A stretch of DNA of 27,393 nt from a virus, in IMG/VR virus record IMGVR_UViG_3300044547_000374, positions 1 to 27,393 of that record. One strand, 5' to 3'. Position numbers and translations under genes: made by a program. This document shows, piece by piece, positions 6,946-27,393 of the stretch. The notes under the pieces are model-generated. The model was given only the letters and a program-made list of their open reading frames with translations, searched no databases and was not told the DNA's origin. The first letter of the stretch is position 1. Every line of letters begins with the position of its first letter.

Positions 6946-6974
6946 AATTGATTTGATTAAATTAAATTTATTAC

Positions 6975-15600: not shown

Positions 15601-17285
15601 ATAGCAATACCTCCGGTGTCTCCATCATTAACATCAATCCAAAAAGCATTTGGCCCACCTGTAAAAGGAAAACCTAATGTTGGTGAAGAGTTAGCTGCCC
15701 ATCTTAATTTAGCGTTACCTATATTTAATCCTCCATCAAATGTTGATAAAGTACTTGTACTAGCTCCTCTTCCTGTAACTGTAGCTAATGTATCCGTTTC
15801 TGATGCTGTTACTGTCCAGCTTCTATTAGCTGATAAATCGTAAGATGTACCATTAATAGTTATTGTTCTTGATGAAGGCACAGCGTATGAAGATATATTA
15901 CCATCATGCAGTACTAATCTTTCAATATTACCACTTCTAATATACATTGCTGTATCAGACGTTACATCAGATTCTCCTTCACCTCCGCCTCTAAAATGCC
16001 ATGCGTCGTCTTGGTAATAAAACCTACCGTTTGTTAGAGAATTATTTCCATAATCTCTAAACATAAGACCACCATCAATATATGTCTTATAACCCCCTCC
16101 TCCTAATCTTGTTATACCAGATAAAGTGACATTGCTAGAAGTGCTAGCTCCTCTTGATGTAACTGATGCTAATGTGTCTGTTTCTGTGTATCCAGTTATA
16201 TATCCTTGAGATGTTACCCAAGGTCTTGTTGCTAATGTATCACCGTTCCATGTAGCATTAGTGGATGCTTGAATTTTTACAGTTGAAGCTTGAACGTTTA
16301 AAATTCCGTCATTTGTATGTAATCCACCAATAGAAACCCCATTTCTAAAAGACTGTATCAACCAAGATCCCTCTGGGTTTTCTACAGATATAGACTCATT
16401 TGAACCAGCAGCTCTACCTATACCAAGTTTACCAAGTTGAATTGTATTAGATGTTACAGATCCACGGCTAGTTACGCTATTTAATGTATCAGTTTCTGTA
16501 TAAGTAGAAATATAACCATTAGGGTTTGAAGCTGGATAGTAAGATGTATTATCATAAGTAATTGTAGTACCTGATGCTTTTACAAATCCAGTTCCATTAA
16601 GTTGCGCTTGTGGTGTATATCCTAACCAACCAGCTATTGTTTTATTTACCCATAATGTTCCATTATATCCTAATAGATGTCCATTAATGGGTGCTGTACT
16701 TTTTAGATCTACATCATGTAATTCATCAAGTTCAAATCCATTTTGTACTTTAACGAATATCTCTCCATTATTAGCATTAACCCTAGTTACAATACCAATG
16801 AATACTAAGTGATTTGGAGCAGAAGGTTTAGTAGATAATCCAAACCTAAGATTACCATTAGTTCCTAGCCATACTGGATCCCCAGGTTCCGCTGAACTGG
16901 TATTTAAACCACTTAGCAACCCTTCTGTGACAACATCTACAAAACCATTAGCAGCAACGTTTGCATTAACCAACCCCATTGTTTTAGATGAAGTTGACTC
17001 TGCAAGGCACGAGGCTAAACCAACGACCATGTTTGTTCCATCGGCTCCCGTTACATAAACGGCCTGGCCTTTAAATATTGAAACACCAGCTTTTACTTGA
17101 TGTTGAACCTTCGACGTTGTACCGGCTGATACACCTAAGTCAGAGGCCATCTCTGCTCCGGTTCTATATTTTATAACGCCTCCATCAGACACCAAAAATT
17201 TATCGGTGTCCGTGGTTGCGTTTGCTATCTGTGATGCACTTAATGAGCCGTCTATCTCAACGGAAGTTTTTATTTTTTGACTCAT
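12663..17285 (-). CDS. Giant tail fibre with C-terminal S74 autochaperone domain
   Basis: This 1540-residue adhesin has a long beta-rich body and a C-terminal intramolecular chaperone. The last 100 residues hold the S74 peptidase signature: SDRRKKEN near 1442-1449 gives the catalytic Ser and Lys, then VGVIAQEIQEVLPEVV and a coiled-coil end (QQTQIEELKELVNKL). The domain guides trimer folding and then cuts itself off. The body repeats a PIFYDSNDTxYY motif three times (one diverged, PIYYDANDSGYY), each near the start of a module, and includes a Gly/Ser/Ala linker (AGSAGSAGSATNATN). Such modules are frequent in aquatic phage fibres. It follows the 340-aa fibre gene after 17 nt and is the largest gene here. 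Confidence 0.9.
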   Translation of the reverse strand: MSQKIKTSVEIDGSLSASQIANATTDTDKFLVSDGGVIKYRTGAEMASDLGVSAGTTSKVQHQVKAGVSIFKGQAVYVTGADGTNMVVGLASCLAESTSSKTMGLVNANVAANGFVDVVTEGLLSGLNTSSAEPGDPVWLGTNGNLRFGLSTKPSAPNHLVFIGIVTRVNANNGEIFVKVQNGFELDELHDVDLKSTAPINGHLLGYNGTLWVNKTIAGWLGYTPQAQLNGTGFVKASGTTITYDNTSYYPASNPNGYISTYTETDTLNSVTSRGSVTSNTIQLGKLGIGRAAGSNESISVENPEGSWLIQSFRNGVSIGGLHTNDGILNVQASTVKIQASTNATWNGDTLATRPWVTSQGYITGYTETDTLASVTSRGASTSSNVTLSGITRLGGGGYKTYIDGGLMFRDYGNNSLTNGRFYYQDDAWHFRGGGEGESDVTSDTAMYIRSGNIERLVLHDGNISSYAVPSSRTITINGTSYDLSANRSWTVTASETDTLATVTGRGASTSTLSTFDGGLNIGNAKLRWAANSSPTLGFPFTGGPNAFWIDVNDGDTGGIAIDNDGTTIYGAGDSGHVFRVIDEDVYQGTSNVDASTTFRIQQGQNGGGYVRGIFEVTDYLTAGNSARAPIFYDSNDTSYYGDFNSTTRQYQAISFGDSSRYSAINTTINGSGAGDKLILYGGVSNYDARLLVGADYDMLFKSQGNSAGKGSFKFYSGQNCNLAMTIDGSQYTSLTGGLSVAGNTSWFGGYGGGSGPGLAFENQNTFARIVFWGLDFYDWNNGTQMVINDGYVLANNSMRSPIFYDSNDTGYYLDPASTTTSLQIAGAVEQGNNLSRPLVQWGASGNATGAVVIKLPGTTSNYGMIHAVIDIYEYNSNNVCTVTIGGHNWSTQWHNYGAQVVGYTNKPVRLAVKDGRFCIVIGNGSSVWEYGQVVLRKIQNGTYYNNVMDLGGAYSIGIESDSYSWVSGDLRQLKSNSVQATDNMYSPIYYDANDSGYYFNPNTDASHRFQTPSGYIDIGPKNGGTCHIYTDRPSFYFNQTLLVNGNTVLHGGNYSSYAWPLEGGWKPASLASSTRLRGATSPDGGEFALAYSGGQIHPYADGFFYQNEGQYRVIDTNSVGSYAVLSRGQSNWAGSGVIDNVVGMLSWKNYGSSHVIFDASNGTTPSGTSCSNTNPQNNWSGSYPTLMGWNGSNTYGVRVDVSRYADSAGSAGSAGSATNATNSDNAGHLRTAYVGGQQLNPQTYFGMGVGLKAAMTATAGYWSDTLWINGYAGGDVLQMCAMHFQRNGTPRAYISVQASNATSYGTLYEMYSSYNMDAPNKSGTSYYQTNTWMQFNGSYGLYWPSNYGAHFHANDGSSYTQFRLQGSKNNWGGIYDSFSGVNGIMYDSAGNGGIYRETNGRWYLYHHVGNNCTAISTSTTSSSYRAYVGGSLYAEGDIVAYSDRRKKENIITVDNALDKVNKLRGVYYNRIDDDSKKRQVGVIAQEIQEVLPEVVTYAEDVDEYGVSYGNITGLLIEAIKEQQTQIEELKELVNKLINK

Positions 17286-20667: not shown

Positions 20668-20689
20668 AATATCTACCTTAATATATACC

Positions 20690-20703
20690 TTATATACTCA
20701 CGT
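20690..20703 (-). promoter_or_regulatory. Candidate late promoter motif, copy A (head of leftward block)
   Basis: The minus strand reads ACGTGAGTATATAA, about 23 nt from the motif end to the ATG at 20667. This is the third instance of ACGTRAKWAWATAA. Its place at the head of the whole 20-kb block makes it the most likely main late promoter. No classical host promoter was found at this exact place. Confidence 0.42.
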
Positions 20704-20745: not shown

Positions 20746-20789
20746 GCGACAATAGCCTGTTACTATATAATATAACTACCTAATGTCAC
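20746..20789. repeat. 44-bp imperfect palindromic element, copy 1
   Basis: The element starts GCGACAATAGCC and ends CTAATGTCAC, with TACTATATAA in the middle. The two ends are imperfect inverted repeats (GCGACAATAG against GTGACATTAG). A second copy of identical length, with 37 of 44 bases the same, lies at 22779-22822. It sits 79 bp upstream of the first late gene. It could bind a dimeric regulator or a replication initiator. Confidence 0.7.
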
Positions 20790-20860
20790 ATTATTTCCGG
20801 TAGGAAAAAAATTTTTTTTAAAAATTATATTTAAGGGCTTGTTGGAGAAAAAGTACATTG

Positions 20861-20868
20861 CAAATATA
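20861..20868 (-). promoter_or_regulatory. Possible host-type -7 box (TAnnTTTG), leftward
   Basis: The minus strand reads TATATTTG, a full match to the -7 element of Bacteroidota primary-sigma promoters. I see no clear TTG at the expected distance upstream, so it is weak. If used, transcription would run left through the 44-bp element into the late block. Confidence 0.28.
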
Positions 20869-20920
20869 TAAGTAAGGGGTTATAACACTATTTTCCGACT
20901 ACTACCCTAAAAGGGAAACG

Positions 20921-21112
20921 CGTTTTGTTTTGCCCAGTCCCCCGTTGTTTTGTGCTGTGTTTTGTATGGTTTCGGCTTTCGGTGCGGTTTCGGCGCGCAG
21001 GTTCAGGTATTAGGTTCCAGGTATCTGTTAGTCAGTGCTGGTGTGTTTGTGTGCGGTGTGGACCGTGTGTGTGTGCTGTGTCGTGTGTTGTATCGGATCG
21101 TAAATGTAACGT
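20921..21112. other. GT-rich, A-poor noncoding stretch
   Basis: On the plus strand almost all bases here are G, T or C with very few A, including runs of GTGTGTGTG near 21066-21075. It is visibly richer in G+C than its neighbours. The 68-codon open frame on the plus strand reads as a Cys/Val/Arg-rich string and does not look like a protein. It may be a structured RNA leader, a skewed replication region or imported DNA. Confidence 0.45.
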
Positions 21113-21132
21113 AAACGTAAGCGAAGCGTAGC

Positions 21133-21153
21133 GTATAGCATACGCGTATAGCA
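21133..21153 (+). promoter_or_regulatory. Paired GTATAGCA operator-like repeat A
   Basis: Two GTATAGCA copies with a 13-nt period lie directly against the first early promoter box. The same pairing, with a 12-nt period, occurs before the second and fifth boxes. One turn of helix between repeats suggests a tandem-binding protein. Confidence 0.5.
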
Positions 21154-21193
21154 CAAGCCGGATACGTGGTGTAAACGATAATATATATGTAAC
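21154..21193 (+). promoter_or_regulatory. Early promoter-like box 1
   Basis: The 40-nt box has CAA, 20 nt including ATACG, then GATAATATATATGTAAC. It ends 18 nt before the ATG at 21212. It is the most diverged copy in its upstream half (GCCGGATACGTGG instead of ACTAAACACGA). Confidence 0.6.
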
Positions 21194-21211
21194 AAGTAAA
21201 TGATATATAAT

Positions 21212-21355
21212 ATGAAACTACAAGAACTAATAAACAGATTGATTGAACGCGGATCGTTTGATCTTAACTCAGACGCGGAGTTCAGCGCATTGAACAGAGC
21301 AGATCAGATCAGTGTACGCATGGCGGTTAGGTTTAACTTATTAATGGAATCATAA
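21212..21355 (+). CDS. Hypothetical early protein, 47 aa
   Basis: The product is MKLQELINRLIERGSFD... ending FNLLMES, predicted helical, with no known motif. It is the first gene of the rightward block and the first of three overlapping genes (TAATG at 21355). Together with the next two it has a noticeably higher G+C than the other early genes. Function unknown. Confidence 0.6.
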   Translation: MKLQELINRLIERGSFDLNSDAEFSALNRADQISVRMAVRFNLLMES

Positions 21356-21441
21356 TGAAAGCGATCCGTAACATCTACAACAGTATATCCATGTTCTTAT
21401 TCGGAGGCAAACCAGCTGCTCCATCTGAGACTAAATGGTAA
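21355..21441 (+). CDS. Hypothetical early protein, 28 aa
   Basis: This short product (MKAIRNIYNSISMFLFGG... ending ETKW) has an amphipathic N-terminal helix with a small hydrophobic patch. It overlaps both neighbours (one base at 21355, and 7 nt at 21435), which supports translation. It could be a membrane-active or host-modifying peptide, but nothing proves that. Confidence 0.45.
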   Translation: MKAIRNIYNSISMFLFGGKPAAPSETKW

Positions 21442-21680
21442 CGATAAACAAATACATTAACAATACAAAACAATACGATATGATACGAATAAATGATTTA
21501 CCAAGACAAGTGAGACTGGATCTGATAGAGGAAGCCAGATGGCAGAATGGTGCTGAGTATGTGAATGACTGTGTACGTGACAATGTGTTTATTGCAGAGA
21601 TCTGTAACTGGGCTAGAACACGTCAGGGTTACGACTACTGGCAATGGGTTAACAAAGGACTGTTTGTACAGATGAATTAA
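21435..21680 (+). CDS. Hypothetical early protein with TxxGxxYW motif, 81 aa
   Basis: The C-terminal part NWARTRQGYDYWQWVNKG resembles a short motif (T-x-x-G-x-x-Y-W) also present in the early gene at 24384. I recall it from many small phage proteins of unknown role. A second possible start is the Met at 21480 (MIRINDLP), which would give 66 residues and fits the family better; the upstream ATG overlaps the previous gene. Function unknown. Confidence 0.6.
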   Translation: MVTINKYINNTKQYDMIRINDLPRQVRLDLIEEARWQNGAEYVNDCVRDNVFIAEICNWARTRQGYDYWQWVNKGLFVQMN

Positions 21681-21709
21681 CAAGCGGAGCGCGGAGACGC
21701 GCGAAGCGT

Positions 21710-21729
21710 GTATAGCAACGCGTATAGCA
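21710..21729 (+). promoter_or_regulatory. Paired GTATAGCA operator-like repeat B
   Basis: Two GTATAGCA copies with a 12-nt period lie 3 nt upstream of promoter box 2, after a G+C-rich tail (GCGGAGCGCGG) behind the previous gene. The pair is identical over 20 bases to the pair before box 5. Confidence 0.5.
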
Positions 21730-21732
21730 TGG

Positions 21733-21772
21733 CAAACTCAACACGATGGGTATTTGATAATAATAATGTAAG
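21733..21772 (+). promoter_or_regulatory. Early promoter-like box 2
   Basis: The box reads CAAACTCAACACGA, then a variable part, then GATAATAATAATGTAAG. It lies 33 nt before the ATG at 21806 and keeps the 20-nt spacing. Confidence 0.62.
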
Positions 21773-21805
21773 TAACAAAGTAAATAACTTAATAAAAATA
21801 ACAAA

Positions 21806-21979
21806 ATGACTTTAACAAATCAAATCTTCAATCCATCAAAACATCACTTCACAATTTATTATTCACATGAATTTAAAATGTATGACTTTTCAGTCTTTGA
21901 TCAAGATAACACATTAATATACCATTATCACTTTTCAAACTTAAAAGATATTAATAAATTAATTCAAGAATTCAAATAA
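21806..21979 (+). CDS. Hypothetical early protein, 57 aa
   Basis: The product (MTLTNQIFNPSKHHF, ... KDINKLIQEFK) is rich in His, Phe, Tyr and Asn and probably a small beta/alpha fold. It is a single-gene unit between two promoter boxes. The clean open frame and box-to-start spacing support it. Function unknown. Confidence 0.6.
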   Translation: MTLTNQIFNPSKHHFTIYYSHEFKMYDFSVFDQDNTLIYHYHFSNLKDINKLIQEFK

Positions 21980-21984
21980 CCTTA

Positions 21985-22024
21985 CAAACTTAATACGACT
22001 AGTATTTGATAATAATAATGTAAA
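21985..22024 (+). promoter_or_regulatory. Early promoter-like box 3
   Basis: The box reads TTACAAACTTAATACGA upstream and GATAATAATAATGTAAA downstream with the 20-nt spacing. It starts 5 nt after the stop of the previous gene and ends 28 nt before the ATG at 22053. Confidence 0.62.
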
Positions 22025-22052
22025 TAAATAATAACAAATAAAATTAAATATC

Positions 22053-22442
22053 ATGACAAACAAAGAATTATTACAACAAGCAATTTCTAAATTAACTAAA
22101 GAAGAATTACAAGCAATCTATCCACCAATTGAACGAGCTAACTTTGTAGTACGCAAGTCTTGGCTAGGTCGTAATCAAGTTATAACCTTTGTCAACAAGA
22201 AAAATCAAAGAGTAACTTACAATCACGATGAAGTACTTAATGTAATGCTACCTAAGCTAAGTATCATGCCATGTTGGATCAAACGTGAGTATTGGTCACA
22301 ATCAACGGATATGCCAAAAGATGTTCGTCACTTAGCAACCATCGAACAACTTCCAAGTGAATTGGATATGATTGAAGCATTTGGTGAAGAGTTCATGGAA
22401 TCAACTAACAAAGGTGAATTAGTAGAGTATGAGGTTGCATAA
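22053..22442 (+). CDS. Hypothetical early protein, 129 aa
   Basis: The first 25 residues are helical (NKELLQQAISKLTKEELQ), followed by a basic beta-type part (VVRKSWLGRNQVITFVNKK, residues 32-50) and an acidic helical end (FGEEFMESTNKGE). The basic central part could touch nucleic acid. No family is recognised. It stands alone behind its own promoter box. Confidence 0.68.
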   Translation: MTNKELLQQAISKLTKEELQAIYPPIERANFVVRKSWLGRNQVITFVNKKNQRVTYNHDEVLNVMLPKLSIMPCWIKREYWSQSTDMPKDVRHLATIEQLPSELDMIEAFGEEFMESTNKGELVEYEVA

Positions 22443-22452
22443 GCCTCCTCTA

Positions 22453-22492
22453 CAAACCTAATACGAAACTAAATTGATAATATTAATGTAAC
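22453..22492 (+). promoter_or_regulatory. Early promoter-like box 4
   Basis: The box reads TACAAACCTAATACGA and GATAATATTAATGTAAC with the 20-nt spacing, 14 nt before the ATG at 22507. It drives two small genes. Confidence 0.62.
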
Positions 22493-22506
22493 TAAATAAA
22501 ATAATT

Positions 22507-22671
22507 ATGATGACTTACGAAGAAAAACTACACGAATTAGCAAGAATGTTTATGTATCAATTCCCTGATCTAGAAACATTATCATTAGATGAATTCCTAA
22601 TGGAATACAGAGAAGAATTAACTGACGAACAGTACGAACTAGGAACTTATATATTAACTTTATTTGAATAA
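22507..22671 (+). CDS. Hypothetical early acidic protein, 54 aa
   Basis: The product starts MMTYEEKLHELARMF and is strongly acidic (LDEFLMEYREELTDEQYE), predicted all-helical. Such small acidic proteins can mimic DNA or bind host enzymes, but there is no direct evidence. Two adjacent Met codons are possible starts. It is followed after 2 nt by a membrane peptide. Confidence 0.58.
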   Translation: MMTYEEKLHELARMFMYQFPDLETLSLDEFLMEYREELTDEQYELGTYILTLFE

Positions 22672-22673
22672 CC

Positions 22674-22763
22674 ATGAGTGAACAACAAAAAGAATCGATC
22701 ATCGAAGGATTATGCTTAGGATTAGTAATTGGCATCGTAATTGGATGGCTAATCTTCGGATAA
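22674..22763 (+). CDS. Small membrane peptide, 29 aa
   Basis: After a polar start (MSEQQKESIIEG) the remainder is one hydrophobic helix with small residues (LCLGLVIGIVIGWLIFG), so it should insert in the inner membrane. It shares a promoter unit with the acidic 54-aa gene. It may act on host membranes or exclude other phages; this is inference. Confidence 0.52.
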   Translation: MSEQQKESIIEGLCLGLVIGIVIGWLIFG

Positions 22764-22778
22764 TTTAACTTAAAAAGT

Positions 22779-22822
22779 GCGACAATAGCCCCCTACTATA
22801 TAACTTAATTAGCTAATGTCAC
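22779..22822. repeat. 44-bp imperfect palindromic element, copy 2
   Basis: This is the second copy of the element at 20746-20789: identical at both ends (GCGACAATAGCC and TAATGTCAC) and in the TACTATATAA centre, with differences only at 7 positions. Here the arms pair slightly better. It lies 16 nt after a gene and 142 nt before promoter box 5. Confidence 0.7.
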
Positions 22823-22937
22823 CTTTTTCTACGATCTTAACTTATGCACCGGAACACGGTGTATAGCATACCTATTGCTTTAAGTGAAATATACTATAAT
22901 TTCGTCAAATCTTCACTGTTTTTGCCGTTTTTATAGT

Positions 22938-22957
22938 GTATAGCAACGCGTATAGCA
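22938..22957 (+). promoter_or_regulatory. Paired GTATAGCA operator-like repeat C
   Basis: Two GTATAGCA copies with a 12-nt period lie 6 nt upstream of box 5. They are identical in sequence and spacing to pair B. Confidence 0.5.
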
Positions 22958-22963
22958 CCCGAG

Positions 22964-23003
22964 CAAGTCGAATACGTGGACCATTTGATAATATAAGTGT
23001 AAC
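22964..23003 (+). promoter_or_regulatory. Early promoter-like box 5
   Basis: The box reads CAAGTCGAATACGTGG and GATAATATAAGTGTAAC with the 20-nt spacing, 20 nt before the ATG at 23024. Like box 1 it has ATACGTGG in place of ACACGA, and like boxes 1 and 2 it is preceded by a GTATAGCA pair. Confidence 0.6.
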
Positions 23004-23023
23004 AATTAATAAATTATACTATT

Positions 23024-23137
23024 ATGAATGAATTTTCCGAGTGTTGTAGTGCTTCAAGGCACCATATATGGGATGAATTATGCTCCGAATGCTTAGATCA
23101 CGCTGAGTTTATCGATTATGATGATAATGACGAGTAG
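23024..23137 (+). CDS. Small Cys/His-rich (zinc-finger-like) protein, 37 aa
   Basis: The 37-residue product has a Cys pair (C7, C8), His pair (H13, H14), then CSEC (C20, C23) and H26, followed by an acidic tail (FIDYDDNDE). The spacing fits a tiny zinc ribbon of the kind common in Bacteroidota phages. It is alone behind box 5 and followed by a probable terminator. Partner unknown. Confidence 0.6.
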   Translation: MNEFSECCSASRHHIWDELCSECLDHAEFIDYDDNDE

Positions 23138-23142
23138 TGAGA

Positions 23143-23170
23143 TAGTGGGTTATACCTTTAACACTATTTT
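23143..23170 (+). terminator. Probable intrinsic terminator
   Basis: An interrupted stem (TAGTG, GG bulge, TTA pairing with TAA and CACTA) closes a 6-nt loop and is followed by TTTT, six nt after the stop of the Cys/His-rich gene. Parts of the sequence (GGGTTATA and ACACTATTTT) recur without the loop insert near 20877-20894. Confidence 0.45.
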
Positions 23171-23197
23171 ATGTAGCAAACAAAGTATATCCTCTTG

Positions 23198-23237
23198 CAA
23201 ACTCAATACGAGCTCCGTATGATAATATAAATGTAAC
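23198..23237 (+). promoter_or_regulatory. Early promoter-like box 6
   Basis: The box reads TTGCAAACTCAATACGA and GATAATATAAATGTAAC with the 20-nt spacing, 16 nt before the ATG at 23254. It heads a four-gene unit. Confidence 0.65.
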
Positions 23238-23253
23238 TAATAACAATTATACT

Positions 23254-23457
23254 ATGACTATAGAAATAACCTCTTATATTAACCCATATTACCCCACAAG
23301 GGTATATTACAAAGCAACTTATGGTCGTGAGTGTTATCACCATATTGACAAGGCTATTGTCGATGCGTGGTTAAAAGCGAAGATCAAGTATAGAGCACAA
23401 GATATTAAAAAACAACGTCTAACCGAACGAGCAATGGATTCGTTCTATAAAAAGTAA
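23254..23457 (+). CDS. Hypothetical early protein, 67 aa
   Basis: The product (MTIEITSYINPYYPT..., KYRAQDIKKQRLTE) is basic, with a Tyr/Pro-rich beta start and a helical end. No family recognised. It is the first of four tightly spaced genes after box 6; the next starts 4 nt after its stop. Confidence 0.62.
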   Translation: MTIEITSYINPYYPTRVYYKATYGRECYHHIDKAIVDAWLKAKIKYRAQDIKKQRLTERAMDSFYKK

Positions 23458-23461
23458 AATT

Positions 23462-23653
23462 ATGAAGAAATTAAATGGATTTGAAAGCTTCCTAGCAACA
23501 CAAGGATTGGAATTATTAAGAGAACAAATGGTGAATGATATTACCGAATATGTACGACAAGGTAAAACACCTTTAATGACTACGGGATTCGTCGATGACT
23601 CTATCAATGCATTAATCAAGAAGATCGAATCGTTAACCTTAAAACAAAAGTAA
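23462..23653 (+). CDS. Hypothetical early protein, 63 aa
   Basis: The product (MKKLNGFESFLATQG, ... IKKIESLTLKQK) is predicted helical with amphipathic ends. It lies between genes at 4 nt and 1 nt distance, so it is surely part of the unit. Function unknown. Confidence 0.62.
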   Translation: MKKLNGFESFLATQGLELLREQMVNDITEYVRQGKTPLMTTGFVDDSINALIKKIESLTLKQK

Positions 23654-23654
23654 T

Positions 23655-23822
23655 ATGAGTGAGTACAATGTAGAAATTATTGAAACTTTAAGTAAAGTTG
23701 TAACCGTAAATGCATCATCTCCCGATATGGCGAGAAGAATGGTTGAAGATATGTATCGCGACGAAGATATAGTATTAGATTATGCCGACTTTGATACCGT
23801 TGAATTTAAAACCGAATATTAA
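23655..23822 (+). CDS. DpnD/PcfM-like small protein, 55 aa
   Basis: The pattern YNVEIIETLSKVVTVNASS, then AxxMVEDMYRDEDIVLDYADF, matches the DpnD/PcfM family of small proteins (known in phages, plasmids and next to DpnII restriction genes; function unresolved). The residues E-x-L-S-x-x-V-x-V and Y-x-x-E-x-I-V-L-D are the conserved ones. It starts 1 nt after the previous stop and ends 2 nt before the next start. Confidence 0.68.
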   Translation: MSEYNVEIIETLSKVVTVNASSPDMARRMVEDMYRDEDIVLDYADFDTVEFKTEY

Positions 23823-23824
23823 TT

Positions 23825-24034
23825 ATGTACCTAAATATAACTAAATACGACCTAAATGTAATTCAAGTGGCTTTAGACCATTTGTACGAAGAACATACGG
23901 ATATATTAGCAAATGCTATACGTACCGAAGATAACGAGCAAGCAAGAATGTCTTACCATATTCAACGAACGATCGAAGATTTGCAAGAAGAATGTAAGCA
24001 TCAATTACAACACTACGAAAACACTAAAGAGTAG
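23825..24034 (+). CDS. Hypothetical early protein, 69 aa
   Basis: The product is acidic and helical (MYLNITKYDLNVIQVALDHLYEEH, shown in part; ... IEDLQEECKHQ), with a possible coiled coil. Last gene of the unit behind box 6; promoter box 7 starts within 4 nt of its stop. Function unknown. Confidence 0.62.
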   Translation: MYLNITKYDLNVIQVALDHLYEEHTDILANAIRTEDNEQARMSYHIQRTIEDLQEECKHQLQHYENTKE

Positions 24035-24038
24035 CTTA

Positions 24039-24078
24039 CAAACTAAACACGAATAATAAATGATAATATTAATGTAAC
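24039..24078 (+). promoter_or_regulatory. Early promoter-like box 7
   Basis: The box reads TTACAAACTAAACACGA and GATAATATTAATGTAAC with the 20-nt spacing, 17 nt before the ATG at 24096. Close to the consensus. Confidence 0.66.
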
Positions 24079-24095
24079 TAATAAAAATATATACT

Positions 24096-24365
24096 ATGTG
24101 CAAATTAATCAAACAAACTAAAGTTTATGAATGTAGCGATTACGACCGTTATATATGGGTTGAATATACAAACGGTAAAGTAAGCGAATTAAATTACCAT
24201 CAAGGTATTAGCGAAGACTTTGATCCATACTACGCTGCAAACGACGCTGACTTACTTAAATTCTACCGCGCAATAAGCGATGCATTATACCACATGAGTG
24301 AAAATGAAGTTGATCAATTCAACTACGCAATCGACATGCACTTTGCATACAAAAATAATTACTAA
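24096..24365 (+). CDS. Hypothetical early protein, 89 aa
   Basis: The product (MCKLIKQTKVYECSDYDRY..., DQFNYAIDMHFAYK) is acidic and aromatic, with a beta start and helical end. It is the first of three genes behind box 7. No family recognised. Confidence 0.65.
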   Translation: MCKLIKQTKVYECSDYDRYIWVEYTNGKVSELNYHQGISEDFDPYYAANDADLLKFYRAISDALYHMSENEVDQFNYAIDMHFAYKNNY

Positions 24366-24383
24366 TAAATAAAAATAAATATT

Positions 24384-24629
24384 ATGACTAGACAAGAATG
24401 GTTTAATACATTGACACCTGAAGTACAAGAAAAATTTAGAAACAACACTAATCAAAACGAAAGCGCATCCGAAGATTCATTCTTTAACTTTTGGATTAGC
24501 CAAAAAGGTATAACATCTGGAATTGGCGGTGCATTCGTATTCCACAAAACACCCGAAGGTTTTACATACTGGAATGACATTGATACCGAAGCAATAAAGT
24601 TAATTAAAAGTAAAGAAAATGAAGACTAA
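24384..24629 (+). CDS. Hypothetical early protein with GAFVF...TPEGxxYW motif, 81 aa
   Basis: The start TRQEWFNTLTPEVQEKFRNN and the later GIGGAFVFHKTPEGFTYWND form a layout I know from many small phage proteins of unknown role (W-x-x-L-x-P-E-x-x-x-K-F then GAF and T-P-E-G-x-x-Y-W). The same C-terminal motif is seen in the early gene at 21435. It overlaps the next gene by 11 nt. Confidence 0.68.
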   Translation: MTRQEWFNTLTPEVQEKFRNNTNQNESASEDSFFNFWISQKGITSGIGGAFVFHKTPEGFTYWNDIDTEAIKLIKSKENED

Positions 24630-24708
24630 GATAAAAGCATTACTTAAAAGACTGTACAAAGAATTACAAGAAGCCGGGAAAGCAGCGGTTTATGCAATGA
24701 GACATTAG
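24619..24708 (+). CDS. Short basic amphipathic peptide, 29 aa
   Basis: The product starts MKTKIKALLKRLYKELQEAG and is one amphipathic basic helix ending VYAMRH. Its start lies within the end of the previous gene (11-nt overlap) and it ends 15 nt before box 8, so it is plausibly translated. It is short enough to be a chance frame. Confidence 0.42.
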   Translation: MKTKIKALLKRLYKELQEAGKAAVYAMRH

Positions 24709-24723
24709 CGATATAAGTATCTA

Positions 24724-24763
24724 CAAACTAAACACGATACTTAATTGATAATACAATTGTAAT
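24724..24763 (+). promoter_or_regulatory. Early promoter-like box 8
   Basis: The box reads TACAAACTAAACACGA and GATAATACAATTGTAAT with the 20-nt spacing, 12 nt before the ATG at 24776. The downstream half differs most from consensus. Confidence 0.58.
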
Positions 24764-24775
24764 TAACAAATAACA

Positions 24776-24955
24776 ATGAAAGATATTAAAAAGAAAAAAG
24801 ACGGAACCTTAATTGTTGACGGCGTGCTATACACACCTTATAATGTCAGCGATCTACCAATGAGCTTTGGCTTTAAAACTAACGAAACACGTGTAACACC
24901 GGGCTATGCCGAATGGTTTAACTATAAAGGCATAACCTATATAATCAAAAAATAA
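24776..24955 (+). CDS. Hypothetical early protein, 59 aa
   Basis: The product (MKDIKKKKDGTLIVDGVLY..., EWFNYKGITYIIKK) has a basic head and beta-type body. First of four genes behind box 8; the next starts 2 nt after its stop. Function unknown. Confidence 0.6.
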   Translation: MKDIKKKKDGTLIVDGVLYTPYNVSDLPMSFGFKTNETRVTPGYAEWFNYKGITYIIKK

Positions 24956-24957
24956 CT

Positions 24958-25107
24958 ATGGAAAAAGCAATTCAAGAAACTGAACGATTCGAAGAGTGGA
25001 TGAAAAATGTTGTACAAAGTGTACACTATGCTAATAACTCTAAAATGACAGTCGCATACGACAAAGTATTCAAAAACAATTTAAAAACAACTATAATATC
25101 TATATAA
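24958..25107 (+). CDS. Hypothetical early protein, 49 aa
   Basis: The product (MEKAIQETERFEEWMKNVVQ, ... LKTTIISI) is helical, with one Trp and a mildly hydrophobic end. It sits 2 nt and 1 nt from its neighbours, which supports translation. Function unknown. Confidence 0.58.
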   Translation: MEKAIQETERFEEWMKNVVQSVHYANNSKMTVAYDKVFKNNLKTTIISI

Positions 25108-25108
25108 T

Positions 25109-25324
25109 ATGGCGGACACCATCAAATACCTAGCTAGTTGTAAAGGATATTCAAGAGTACTATCCTTAACAAGTGAACTTAAAAGAATGCAACACGACGT
25201 TGACTACCAATTAACCGGTGGTGTATCGCTTGAAGAAGTCATTGCGGTACGAGATGGTGTTGCTAAAGAATTAGAAGTGTGGAAATATATCTTTAAACTT
25301 ATAGAAAACGATAATAAATTATGA
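25109..25324 (+). CDS. Hypothetical early protein, 71 aa
   Basis: The product (MADTIKYLASCKGYSRVLS..., EVIAVRDGVAKELEVWKY) is predicted to be three helices. It overlaps the next gene by 4 nt (ATGA). No family recognised. Confidence 0.62.
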   Translation: MADTIKYLASCKGYSRVLSLTSELKRMQHDVDYQLTGGVSLEEVIAVRDGVAKELEVWKYIFKLIENDNKL

Positions 25325-25560
25325 GCGACGAATCACATAACGGTTATACAAACTACGCTACATGGCGTATACACTTAGAAGTCTTAAGTAAATACGAATT
25401 TACTGAACCGGTTCACGCAAGTGATCTTGAAGATGTAGTAGCTATCGAAGTATTTAAAAACTACAACGGTCCAACGCTCATAAGCGATTACGCTACGGCA
25501 TTTATTAATCAAGTAAATTTCTACGAACTAGCAGATATGATTAACAACGAATTAGAATAG
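25321..25560 (+). CDS. DUF7249-like small protein, 79 aa
   Basis: The start SHNGYTNYATWRIHLEV carries the NGYTNYATW signature of a small phage family that I remember as DUF7249; function unknown. The rest is acidic and aromatic (YNGPTLISDYA, NFYELADMINNE). Last gene of its unit; box 9 begins 5 nt after the stop. Confidence 0.66.
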   Translation: MSDESHNGYTNYATWRIHLEVLSKYEFTEPVHASDLEDVVAIEVFKNYNGPTLISDYATAFINQVNFYELADMINNELE

Positions 25561-25564
25561 CTTA

Positions 25565-25604
25565 CAAACTAAACACGACAACACAACGATAATATAAATG
25601 TAAC
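25565..25604 (+). promoter_or_regulatory. Early promoter-like box 9
   Basis: The box reads TTACAAACTAAACACGA and GATAATATAAATGTAAC with the 20-nt spacing, 16 nt before the ATG at 25621. It is the copy closest to the consensus. Confidence 0.67.
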
Positions 25605-25620
25605 AAATAAAAAATTATAT

Positions 25621-25896
25621 ATGAAAACAATTAACACTACCCAACAGTTCAAAGAATTTGTTGGAGACAATGGCAGATTATTTAGCGTAACATTCAGAAA
25701 AGCTGACGGATCAATTAGAAAAATGGTTGCAAGACTAAATGTAAAGTCTTACTTAACTGGCGGCGGTGCAAAATACAATGCATCCGAGCGTAACAATATC
25801 GTAGTATTCTCTATGCGAGATAAAGCATACCGTACAATTAAGATTGATAACTTATTGAGTATCAAGGCTAATGGTGAATTAATCGAAAACAACTAA
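25621..25896 (+). CDS. Probable SH3-like beta-barrel phage protein, 91 aa
   Basis: The body has the pattern LFSVTFRKADGSIRKMVARL, then YLTGGGAKYNASERNNIVVF, then YRTIKIDNLLSI. I recall this series (two-strand start, V-x-Y-L-x-G-G-G, then I-V-V-F, then Y-R-x-I-x-I-D) from phage proteins listed as SH3 beta-barrel fold. Binding partner unknown. It precedes the GP88-like gene by 10 nt. Confidence 0.62.
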   Translation: MKTINTTQQFKEFVGDNGRLFSVTFRKADGSIRKMVARLNVKSYLTGGGAKYNASERNNIVVFSMRDKAYRTIKIDNLLSIKANGELIENN

Positions 25897-25906
25897 ATAA
25901 AAATAT

Positions 25907-26512
25907 ATGAACTTATTAACTCAAAATTCGAAATTAAAAAAGACAAGCAAATTAACAGGTCTACGAGTATTTAATTTTGGCATTCCTGCATACAAAAGCG
26001 CAACGGGTAAATTAACCTGCCCGTTCGCTGCAGAATGTGTTAAGTTTTGTTATGCTCAAAAAGGTGCATACTCTTGGAGTAATGTTAAGCCAGCGTTTGA
26101 AAAACGTTATGAGCTAACTAAGACTGACGATTTTGTTAATGAGATGAATAAAGAAATAGCTAAGAAAAAACCTGATTATGTGCGTGTCCACGACAGTGGC
26201 GACTACTACTCTAAAGCATATCTTGATAAGTGGATCGAGATTGCTATACACAACCCTCATGTCAGGTTTTATAGCTATACTAACAGTGTTGAAATGCTAA
26301 AATCAGCTGATCTACCTGATAATTACGACATTATCTTTAGTGATTCTGGCAAGCAAAAAGATAAAATTAATACTAAAGTTGATCGCCATACCAGAATTTT
26401 TGCTACCTTAGCCGATATGACATTAGCTGGCTATGTAAACGCTATGGAAACTGATCTTAATGCAACTAAGTGGTTCAATAAAACAAATAGAGTAGGATTA
26501 ATCTTCCACTAA
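25907..26512 (+). CDS. GP88-family phage protein with Cys cluster, 201 aa
   Basis: The protein resembles the phage family named after mycobacteriophage gene product 88: NFGIPAYKSATGKLTCPFAA (cut here) leads into a Cys cluster CPFAAECVKFCYA (C38, C44, C48; C-x5-C-x3-C), then RVHDSGDYYSKAYLDKW and YSYTNS. The Cys cluster could bind a metal or an iron-sulfur cluster, and the RxHxSGD part looks like a catalytic or ligand loop; neither has been shown here. It is the largest early protein in the window. The start at 25907 is 10 nt after the previous stop. Confidence 0.75.
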   Translation: MNLLTQNSKLKKTSKLTGLRVFNFGIPAYKSATGKLTCPFAAECVKFCYAQKGAYSWSNVKPAFEKRYELTKTDDFVNEMNKEIAKKKPDYVRVHDSGDYYSKAYLDKWIEIAIHNPHVRFYSYTNSVEMLKSADLPDNYDIIFSDSGKQKDKINTKVDRHTRIFATLADMTLAGYVNAMETDLNATKWFNKTNRVGLIFH

Positions 26513-26520
26513 TACTCTTG

Positions 26521-26560
26521 CAAACTGAACACGAATAACAATTGATAATATAAATGTAAC
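26521..26560 (+). promoter_or_regulatory. Early promoter-like box 10
   Basis: The box reads TTGCAAACTGAACACGA and GATAATATAAATGTAAC with the 20-nt spacing, 17 nt before the ATG at 26578. It precedes the gene-tRNA-gene unit. Confidence 0.66.
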
Positions 26561-26577
26561 ATATAAAAATATATATA

Positions 26578-26976
26578 ATGAAAACAATCGAACAAATTTT
26601 CCAAGGTGTTGAAACTAATGTTAAAATGTCAATCAGTAGCGTATTTACTAAAGATGATGTACTAAATATTATGTCAAATGTTTTTGCAGCAATTAAAGAA
26701 GCTGAACAACCTCAACAACCAATATCAACCCCTAACATATTAGCGAGTGATTTTGCTAACTTCACATCTAAAGTTCGCGAAAAACTATCTTACTACTTAG
26801 AAAGTTCAGATATTGTTGATTACGATTCTGCTAATTTTGAATTTGAATATGACAATCGCATTGTACTTAGCCATGTTAATGTAGATCTTGATAGCTGGAC
26901 TGAAGAGTTCGATGAATATATGCTAGATAACTTTACAGAAATATTTGGTGACGATAGTATTATTGCTGATAAATAA
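26578..26976 (+). CDS. Hypothetical early protein, 132 aa
   Basis: The product has a helical head (MKTIEQIFQGVETN; DVLNIMSNVFAAIKEAEQ), a Pro/Gln linker (QPQQPISTPN, about 43-52) and a strongly acidic second half (DIVDYDSANFEFEYDN, DSWTEEFDEYMLDNFTEIFGDD). The acidity of the second half could mimic DNA. No family recognised. The tRNA starts 7 nt after its stop. Confidence 0.68.
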   Translation: MKTIEQIFQGVETNVKMSISSVFTKDDVLNIMSNVFAAIKEAEQPQQPISTPNILASDFANFTSKVREKLSYYLESSDIVDYDSANFEFEYDNRIVLSHVNVDLDSWTEEFDEYMLDNFTEIFGDDSIIADK

Positions 26977-27076: not shown

Positions 27077-27393
27077 ATGAATATATTTTATTTAGACAGA
27101 GATCCAGTTAAAGCAGCTGAACAGCATTACAATAAGCATGTTGTTAAAATGGTCTTAGAAGCAGCGCAATTACTTTGTACAGCGCATCATTTAGCTGGTA
27201 ATCCAAGCGATGTTCCATACAAAAAAACACACATGAATCATCCATCTGCTGTATGGGTACGATCATCAGTAGCTAATTATATGTGGTGCTACGAATATAT
27301 GTTAGCTCTTGGTGCTGAATATACTAAACGTTACGGTAAGCATCATTTAACTATTGCAAAGTGTCGTGAGATTCTTTCTAATGTACCACATGC
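27077..27393 (+). CDS. Conserved phage protein (partial, C-terminus beyond window edge)
   Basis: The visible 105 residues start MNIFYLDRDPVKAAEQHYNK and continue HVVKMVLEAAQLLCTAHH, then HMNHPSAVWVRSSVANYMWC. This series (FYLDRDP, KHVVKMVLE, HP-x-x-x-W-V-R) occurs in many marine phage proteins that I remember only as uncharacterised. The conserved His, Asp and Lys residues look like an active site, but the reaction is unknown. It follows the tRNA by 19 nt and runs off the window end. Confidence 0.68.
   Translation, partial: MNIFYLDRDPVKAAEQHYNKHVVKMVLEAAQLLCTAHHLAGNPSDVPYKKTHMNHPSAVWVRSSVANYMWCYEYMLALGAEYTKRYGKHHLTIAKCREILSNVPH

Follow-up and report, generated by a model that had tools for sequence, protein, structure and literature searches.

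Conserved 44-bp imperfect palindromes as probable operators of an autoregulated HTH protein in uncultured Bacteroidota phages

Small activators of temperate phages such as P2 Ogr, a zinc-binding protein, and Mu C act on imperfect dyads located upstream of late promoters; such activators have one site per late promoter and use the host sigma-70. Autoregulated repressors form a more general class, in which an operator covers the promoter or the start of the regulator's own gene and a few other operators exist. The p4 protein of phi29 is made early, and its dimers occupy a small number of imperfect inverted repeats located between early and late promoters (sites 1-4), activating the late promoter and repressing the early ones, and its sites are functionally asymmetric (PMC3100819).

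The locus described here belongs to an IMG/VR fragment of 27,393 nucleotides (hereafter, the window), which comes from an uncultured Bacteroidota podovirus. The large terminase encoded in the window shares 66% identity with its counterpart in MW202828, an uncultured podovirus record, and about 40% with the terminases of Cellulophaga and Flavobacterium phages. The left part carries late genes together with GroEL/GroES on the minus strand, and the right part carries small early-type genes on the plus strand, the terms "early" and "late" being assigned from strand and gene content. Two 44-bp elements, E1 and E2, had been noted in a preliminary description of this DNA (Table 1). Their coordinates proved right and 37 of the 44 bases were again found identical, their imperfect inverted-repeat ends correspond to arms GYGACAWTAG/CTAATGTCRC separated by 24 bp, and both copies lie outside plausible ORFs, in agreement with the noncoding position assigned to them. 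To say that they frame the first four early units is also fair, as promoter-like repeats at 21154, 21733, 21981 and 22449 are located between them. The 27-kb window contains just four exact matches to GYGACAWTAG, namely the four arms of E1 and E2, and a Markov-1 control under the scan rule yielded one element in 622 kb, which excludes a chance origin. The element is intrinsically asymmetric and has an orientation.

Table 1. Positions of the elements and neighbouring features in the window.
Feature	Coordinates	Strand	Remarks
First late-side ORF, 49 aa	20518..20667	-	Follows the late motif; further late genes extend to the left
Late-promoter-like motif ACGTGAGTATATAAGGTAT	20685..20703	-	Edge of E1 43 bp away, a distance in register with the 22 and 32 bp of relatives
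E1, imperfect palindrome of 44 bp, operator-like	20746..20789	.	GCGACAATAGCCTGTTACTATATAATATAACTACCTAATGTCAC; late(-)/early(+) divergent junction; L-type half (GCGACAATAGCCTGTTACT) towards the late promoter
First early promoter-like repeat (ATACGTGG...GATAATATATATGTAAC)	21154..21199	+	Early side of E1
Early ORF, 129 aa	22053..22442	+	Between E1 and E2, also in relatives; served as bait for relatives
E2, second 44-bp element	22779..22822	.	GCGACAATAGCCCCCTACTATATAACTTAATTAGCTAATGTCAC; after early block 1; points the same way as E1; AAAAAGT / CTTTTT tracts on its flanks
Early promoter-like repeat	22964..23009	+	Downstream of E2
Early ORF, cut off at the window end	27077..27391	+	Counterpart in L034 at 16033-16473

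Relatives were retrieved with two small proteins of the window, giving 80 and 35 related loci, and the element is present in nearly all loci of the first search (80), often two or three times. Scanning IMG/VR with the exact consensus, with N at the variable places, gave no match; a relaxed pattern recovered at least 119 stretches among the IMG/VR viral contigs. Overall, 284 distinct examples were gathered from relatives, their arm spacing being limited to 23-26 when every spacing from 0 to 70 was tested, and whole records contained one to three exact-type sites each and none for the reversed control pattern. The check in relatives, where absence would speak against the element, thus found it in well over 100 related contigs, and the check for coding sequence showed that only a third copy, E3, touches one, at its start codon, which strengthens the operator reading. 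Across the 36 loci spanning the region, the rule used detected three sites in 25, four in 5 and two in 6, so the usual number is about three per genome (E1, E2 and E3), and the order E1-E2-E3-HTH gene is kept. In these relatives, E1 lies at the late/early junction beside the late promoter, E2 usually comes 1-3 kb inside the early region and E3 follows after another 5-9 kb, two copies being direct and one inverted. The nearest record, MW202828, has neither the site nor the HTH protein, and the only Rfam match was tRNA-Met.

A conserved gene for a protein of ~206 amino acids has its start codon inside E3, whose right arm CTAATGTCAC reads as CTA followed by ATG-TCA-C (Met-Ser-His). A protein-alignment search with this gene matched 442 viral contigs, and the position of E3 was scored in the best 80 of these 442: 73 have the element over the start codon, 4 have it 24 nt upstream and 3 have it ~1.1 kb upstream, with an insertion between. 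This ~1.1-kb insertion (in L257, L258 and L260; L257:8864-10000) contains HNH-endonuclease-like sequence, so that a homing endonuclease may have entered where the regulator gene begins. In an independent set, about 10 of 10 full-length homologues in GTDB MAG contigs have E3 at their start, one of them with a TTG start. In the window phage, E3 and the HTH gene would lie outside the window, E3 probably 1-3 kb past its end, because the L034 counterpart of the truncated last early ORF precedes E3 and the HTH gene by about 1.3 kb.

Sequence comparisons weakly, and structural comparisons moderately, support a helix-turn-helix (HTH) DNA-binding protein as the predicted product of this gene. Weak HTH_11 matches, with Pfam scores below the gathering thresholds, were found at residues ~161-191 in three diverged members, and the predicted recognition region contains the invariant residues C182, R185, T186, R189 and N190. 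The AlphaFold model is confident, with a pLDDT of 88, and its C-terminal ~55 residues (150-205) align with HTH domains with middling Z values of 5-6. No relative of solved structure was retrieved by sequence and Foldseek gave no significant match; no clear relative emerged either when only the N-terminal domain was compared with known folds, which is not evidence of a new fold. Among 50,697 records of cultured phages, no homologue was found. Two primase-like (BT4734/PriCT-type) proteins of Chitinophagaceae MAGs (L343 and L344) have a C-terminus that the C-terminal half of the HTH protein resembles.

The elements and the HTH gene are linked. All 27 searched records encoding the HTH protein carry the elements, and 9 of the 10 searched records without the protein are devoid of the element, the exception (G035) presenting a single E1-like site and no detectable HTH gene. 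In 74 of 74 loci long enough to hold it, a sigma-70-type gene, scoring above the TIGR02937 cut-off, follows the HTH gene on the same strand at a distance of 0-1.75 kb; another neighbouring gene encodes an ERF-type annealing protein. In an HTH-less sister clade, the corresponding junctions (L093-L117) keep a late-type promoter (GGGTAATAATATATATTATAG) together with another conserved upstream sequence (TAGCCCTATACCTATAATTATGCAAC), and display telomere-like CCTAAACCCT runs. A replacement palindrome was sought in this clade, where conserved sequence is present without a clear palindrome. Taken with the location of E3 on the HTH start codon and of E1 and E2 elsewhere, as in an operator set, this co-occurrence identifies a likely binding protein, and the earlier suggestion of operators is well supported: the elements are very probably operators of the HTH protein.

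Late-ward of E1, a conserved motif RCGTRATNNTAYANNGTATA lies immediately ahead of the first late gene. Among 39 sequence clusters, the distance between the E1 edge and this motif was 20-23 bp in 19, 30-33 bp in 12 and 42-44 bp in 5, a distribution phased at 10.5 bp (Rayleigh R=0.79, p~2.5e-11 assuming independent clusters, as clustering lessens shared ancestry and some remains). In a uniform control, 99.9% of the runs stayed below R=0.50, and the distance from E2 to the next early promoter, used as a negative control, was unphased (R=0.20). This phasing, as in class-I-type activator sites, implies contact between E1-bound and promoter-bound factors, and the position of E1 upstream of the late promoter makes activation likelier than repression. 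The late promoter-like motif (RCGTRATNNTATA...) occurs in the window at 6970(-), ahead of GroEL, at 2962(-), ahead of the ORF that starts at 2943, and at 20685(-), by E1. No element accompanies the motifs at 6970 and 2962, and therefore the HTH protein would not be needed at every late promoter.

On the early side, a repeat resembling an early promoter (ACAAACTNAACACGA-N8-TTGATAATATAAATGTAAC) stands ahead of start codons throughout the early region, in at least nine places (window 21154-26580), and a CGTATAGCA motif is repeated near the early promoters (21132-22957), including two identical 22-bp copies (21708 and 22936). A C-poor, G/T-rich noncoding stretch (20930-21130) separates E1 from the first early promoter. 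Near E2, a conserved RNA-like GGCCTGACTTTGAAATAGAGTCGGAAGAGTAGACTCCGTCCTAC is found in L027 (10844-10858) and in ~95 other loci; it is absent from the window and has no Rfam match.

The main rival explanation, which is compatible with the operator reading and which we regard as unlikely in itself, is that each element embeds a promoter (GTGACA, 15-18 nt, TATAGT/TATAAT) whose transcript would leave on the side of the L-type half, the arms being an overlapping operator. E3 would then start a nearly leaderless HTH mRNA and E1 a late-ward RNA. The arm spacing of 23-26 does equal a promoter spacer of 15-18 nt, and positions 15-19 of the L half show extra conservation in E1 and E3 that is absent in E2. 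Both elements also score 10/12 matches on the minus strand in a sigma-70 scan, although its sites are no commoner than in shuffled sequences (16 versus 14.3). Moreover, GYGAC..TAG is equally conserved in both halves, which is needless for a promoter, and E2 would point opposite to its neighbouring genes. The sigma-A of Bacteroidota is not known to use TTGACA/TATAAT.

Another rival is a replication origin, in which the elements would be initiator sites and the HTH protein the initiator. E1 coincides with the strand switch and with the cumulative GC-skew minimum of the profiled stretch, and the two weak C-terminal homologues mentioned above (L343 and L344) are fused to primase-like domains. Nevertheless, the skew switch tracks gene orientation, and instead of clustered initiator repeats or iterons, single copies are dispersed 1-8 kb apart over ~10 kb, one of them helically phased to a promoter (E1) and another on the start codon of the regulator itself (E3). 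The replication-initiator sites of the preliminary description are thus not upheld, and we consider this explanation improbable.

The two arms of the element do not behave as the strands of a hairpin. Across the 284 distinct elements, the arms pair at 7.78 of 10 Watson-Crick positions, versus 8.13 in shuffled arms (sd 0.04), and perfect pairing was never observed, with 22.8 cases expected. The half-sites are identical at positions 6-8 in a single element, versus 57 expected, and at positions 6-9 in none. This mismatch is seen in both E1 and E2 and survives the thinning of related sequences, small sets losing power; at E3, the start codon nearly always sets one half to ATT, and the other half is never ATT. 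Since the arms pair less than shuffled arms and matching halves are missing, matching half-sites appear to be avoided and each half appears to be read separately as DNA. An element acting at the RNA level, as a hairpin terminator or attenuator or by sequestering the start codon at E3, is for its part very improbable. It would suit the A-tract/T-tract flanks that are frequent at E2 (TTTT within 10 nt in 58% of its copies), and several copies fold with better energy than shuffles, as palindromic operators do anyway; compensatory change was sought between the arms and anti-covariation was found instead, and a terminator scan found no terminator. Site-specific recombination or resolution sites can practically be dismissed: the inverted arms are paired and two copies are direct and one inverted, but the central length varies (23-26) where a fixed-length core is expected, the order of the sites and the HTH gene is kept in the 36 loci, and the linked genes tested are the sigma factor and the ERF-type annealing protein, with no linked recombinase found.

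The best explanation is therefore that the elements are operators of an autoregulated ~206-aa phage HTH protein acting as an early/late switch, a reading that we consider probable and that builds on the conservation, positions, linkage and phasing shown above and on the independence of the half-sites from hairpin pairing. Early transcription would produce the HTH protein and the sigma factor. We infer that the HTH protein binds, that it dimerises and whether it activates or represses at each site: a dimer would read the two half-sites GYGACRWTAGSYNNYTA, inverted with respect to each other and separated by an AT-rich centre whose length may vary. When bound to E1, the protein would stand immediately ahead of the first late promoter, always on one helix face, and would most likely contact RNA polymerase, most likely resulting in class-I-type activation of late transcription; late activation by this protein is a role towards which we lean slightly. 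At E3, over its own start codon, the protein would most likely shut off its own synthesis, and autorepression seems reasonably likely. E2 probably blocks or tunes early transcription, or serves as a looping partner, since the DNA looping raised in the preliminary description may take place, and with its terminator-like A/T-tract flanks it may cut early transcription. As the early region would supply both the regulator and a sigma factor, the arrangement suggests an early-to-late switch.

A simple symmetric dimer leaves the strict half-site mismatch unexplained, and this forced asymmetry is an unusual quantitative rule for which any mechanism must account. One tentative idea, which we hold to be rather doubtful, is that of direction-coded operators, in which the regulator requires two unequal half-sites, the L-type half being turned, at E1 and E3, towards the promoter or gene under control. 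If true, asymmetry would tell a homodimer in which direction to act, and a single oriented 44-bp word would serve as late activator site, autorepressor site and early-gene brake, in a protein family without a cultured member. Regardless of this idea, the operator reading provides a list of sites, a named regulator and promoter motifs for the putative early/late switch in uncultured Bacteroidota phages of a widespread group, whose regulation appears undescribed; our literature search found no description of an E1-E3/HTH switch system.

In comparison with known systems, the elements and the HTH protein would work like phi29 p4, an analogy that makes no claim of family membership. The functional asymmetry of the p4 sites resembles the unequal half-sites found here, a resemblance to be taken as a lead only. 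In contrast, p4 has a unique N-hook fold rather than an HTH, its site is CTTTTT-15-AAAATG, and an operator on its own start codon, as at E3, is undescribed in that work (PMC3100819); sequence and fold searches of the PDB with the HTH protein did not match p4, which is not evidence against a relation. With P2 Ogr and Mu C, E1 shares a dyad upstream of a late promoter; their folds differ, and they have a site at each late promoter and rely on the host sigma-70, unlike the elements described here. Autoregulated repressors have a similar layout, combining an operator at the start of their own gene with a few others, as here. Nevertheless, the start codon is built into one operator arm in these phages, a feature conserved across dozens of diverged contigs, and their other sites include one that is phased to the late promoter (E1).
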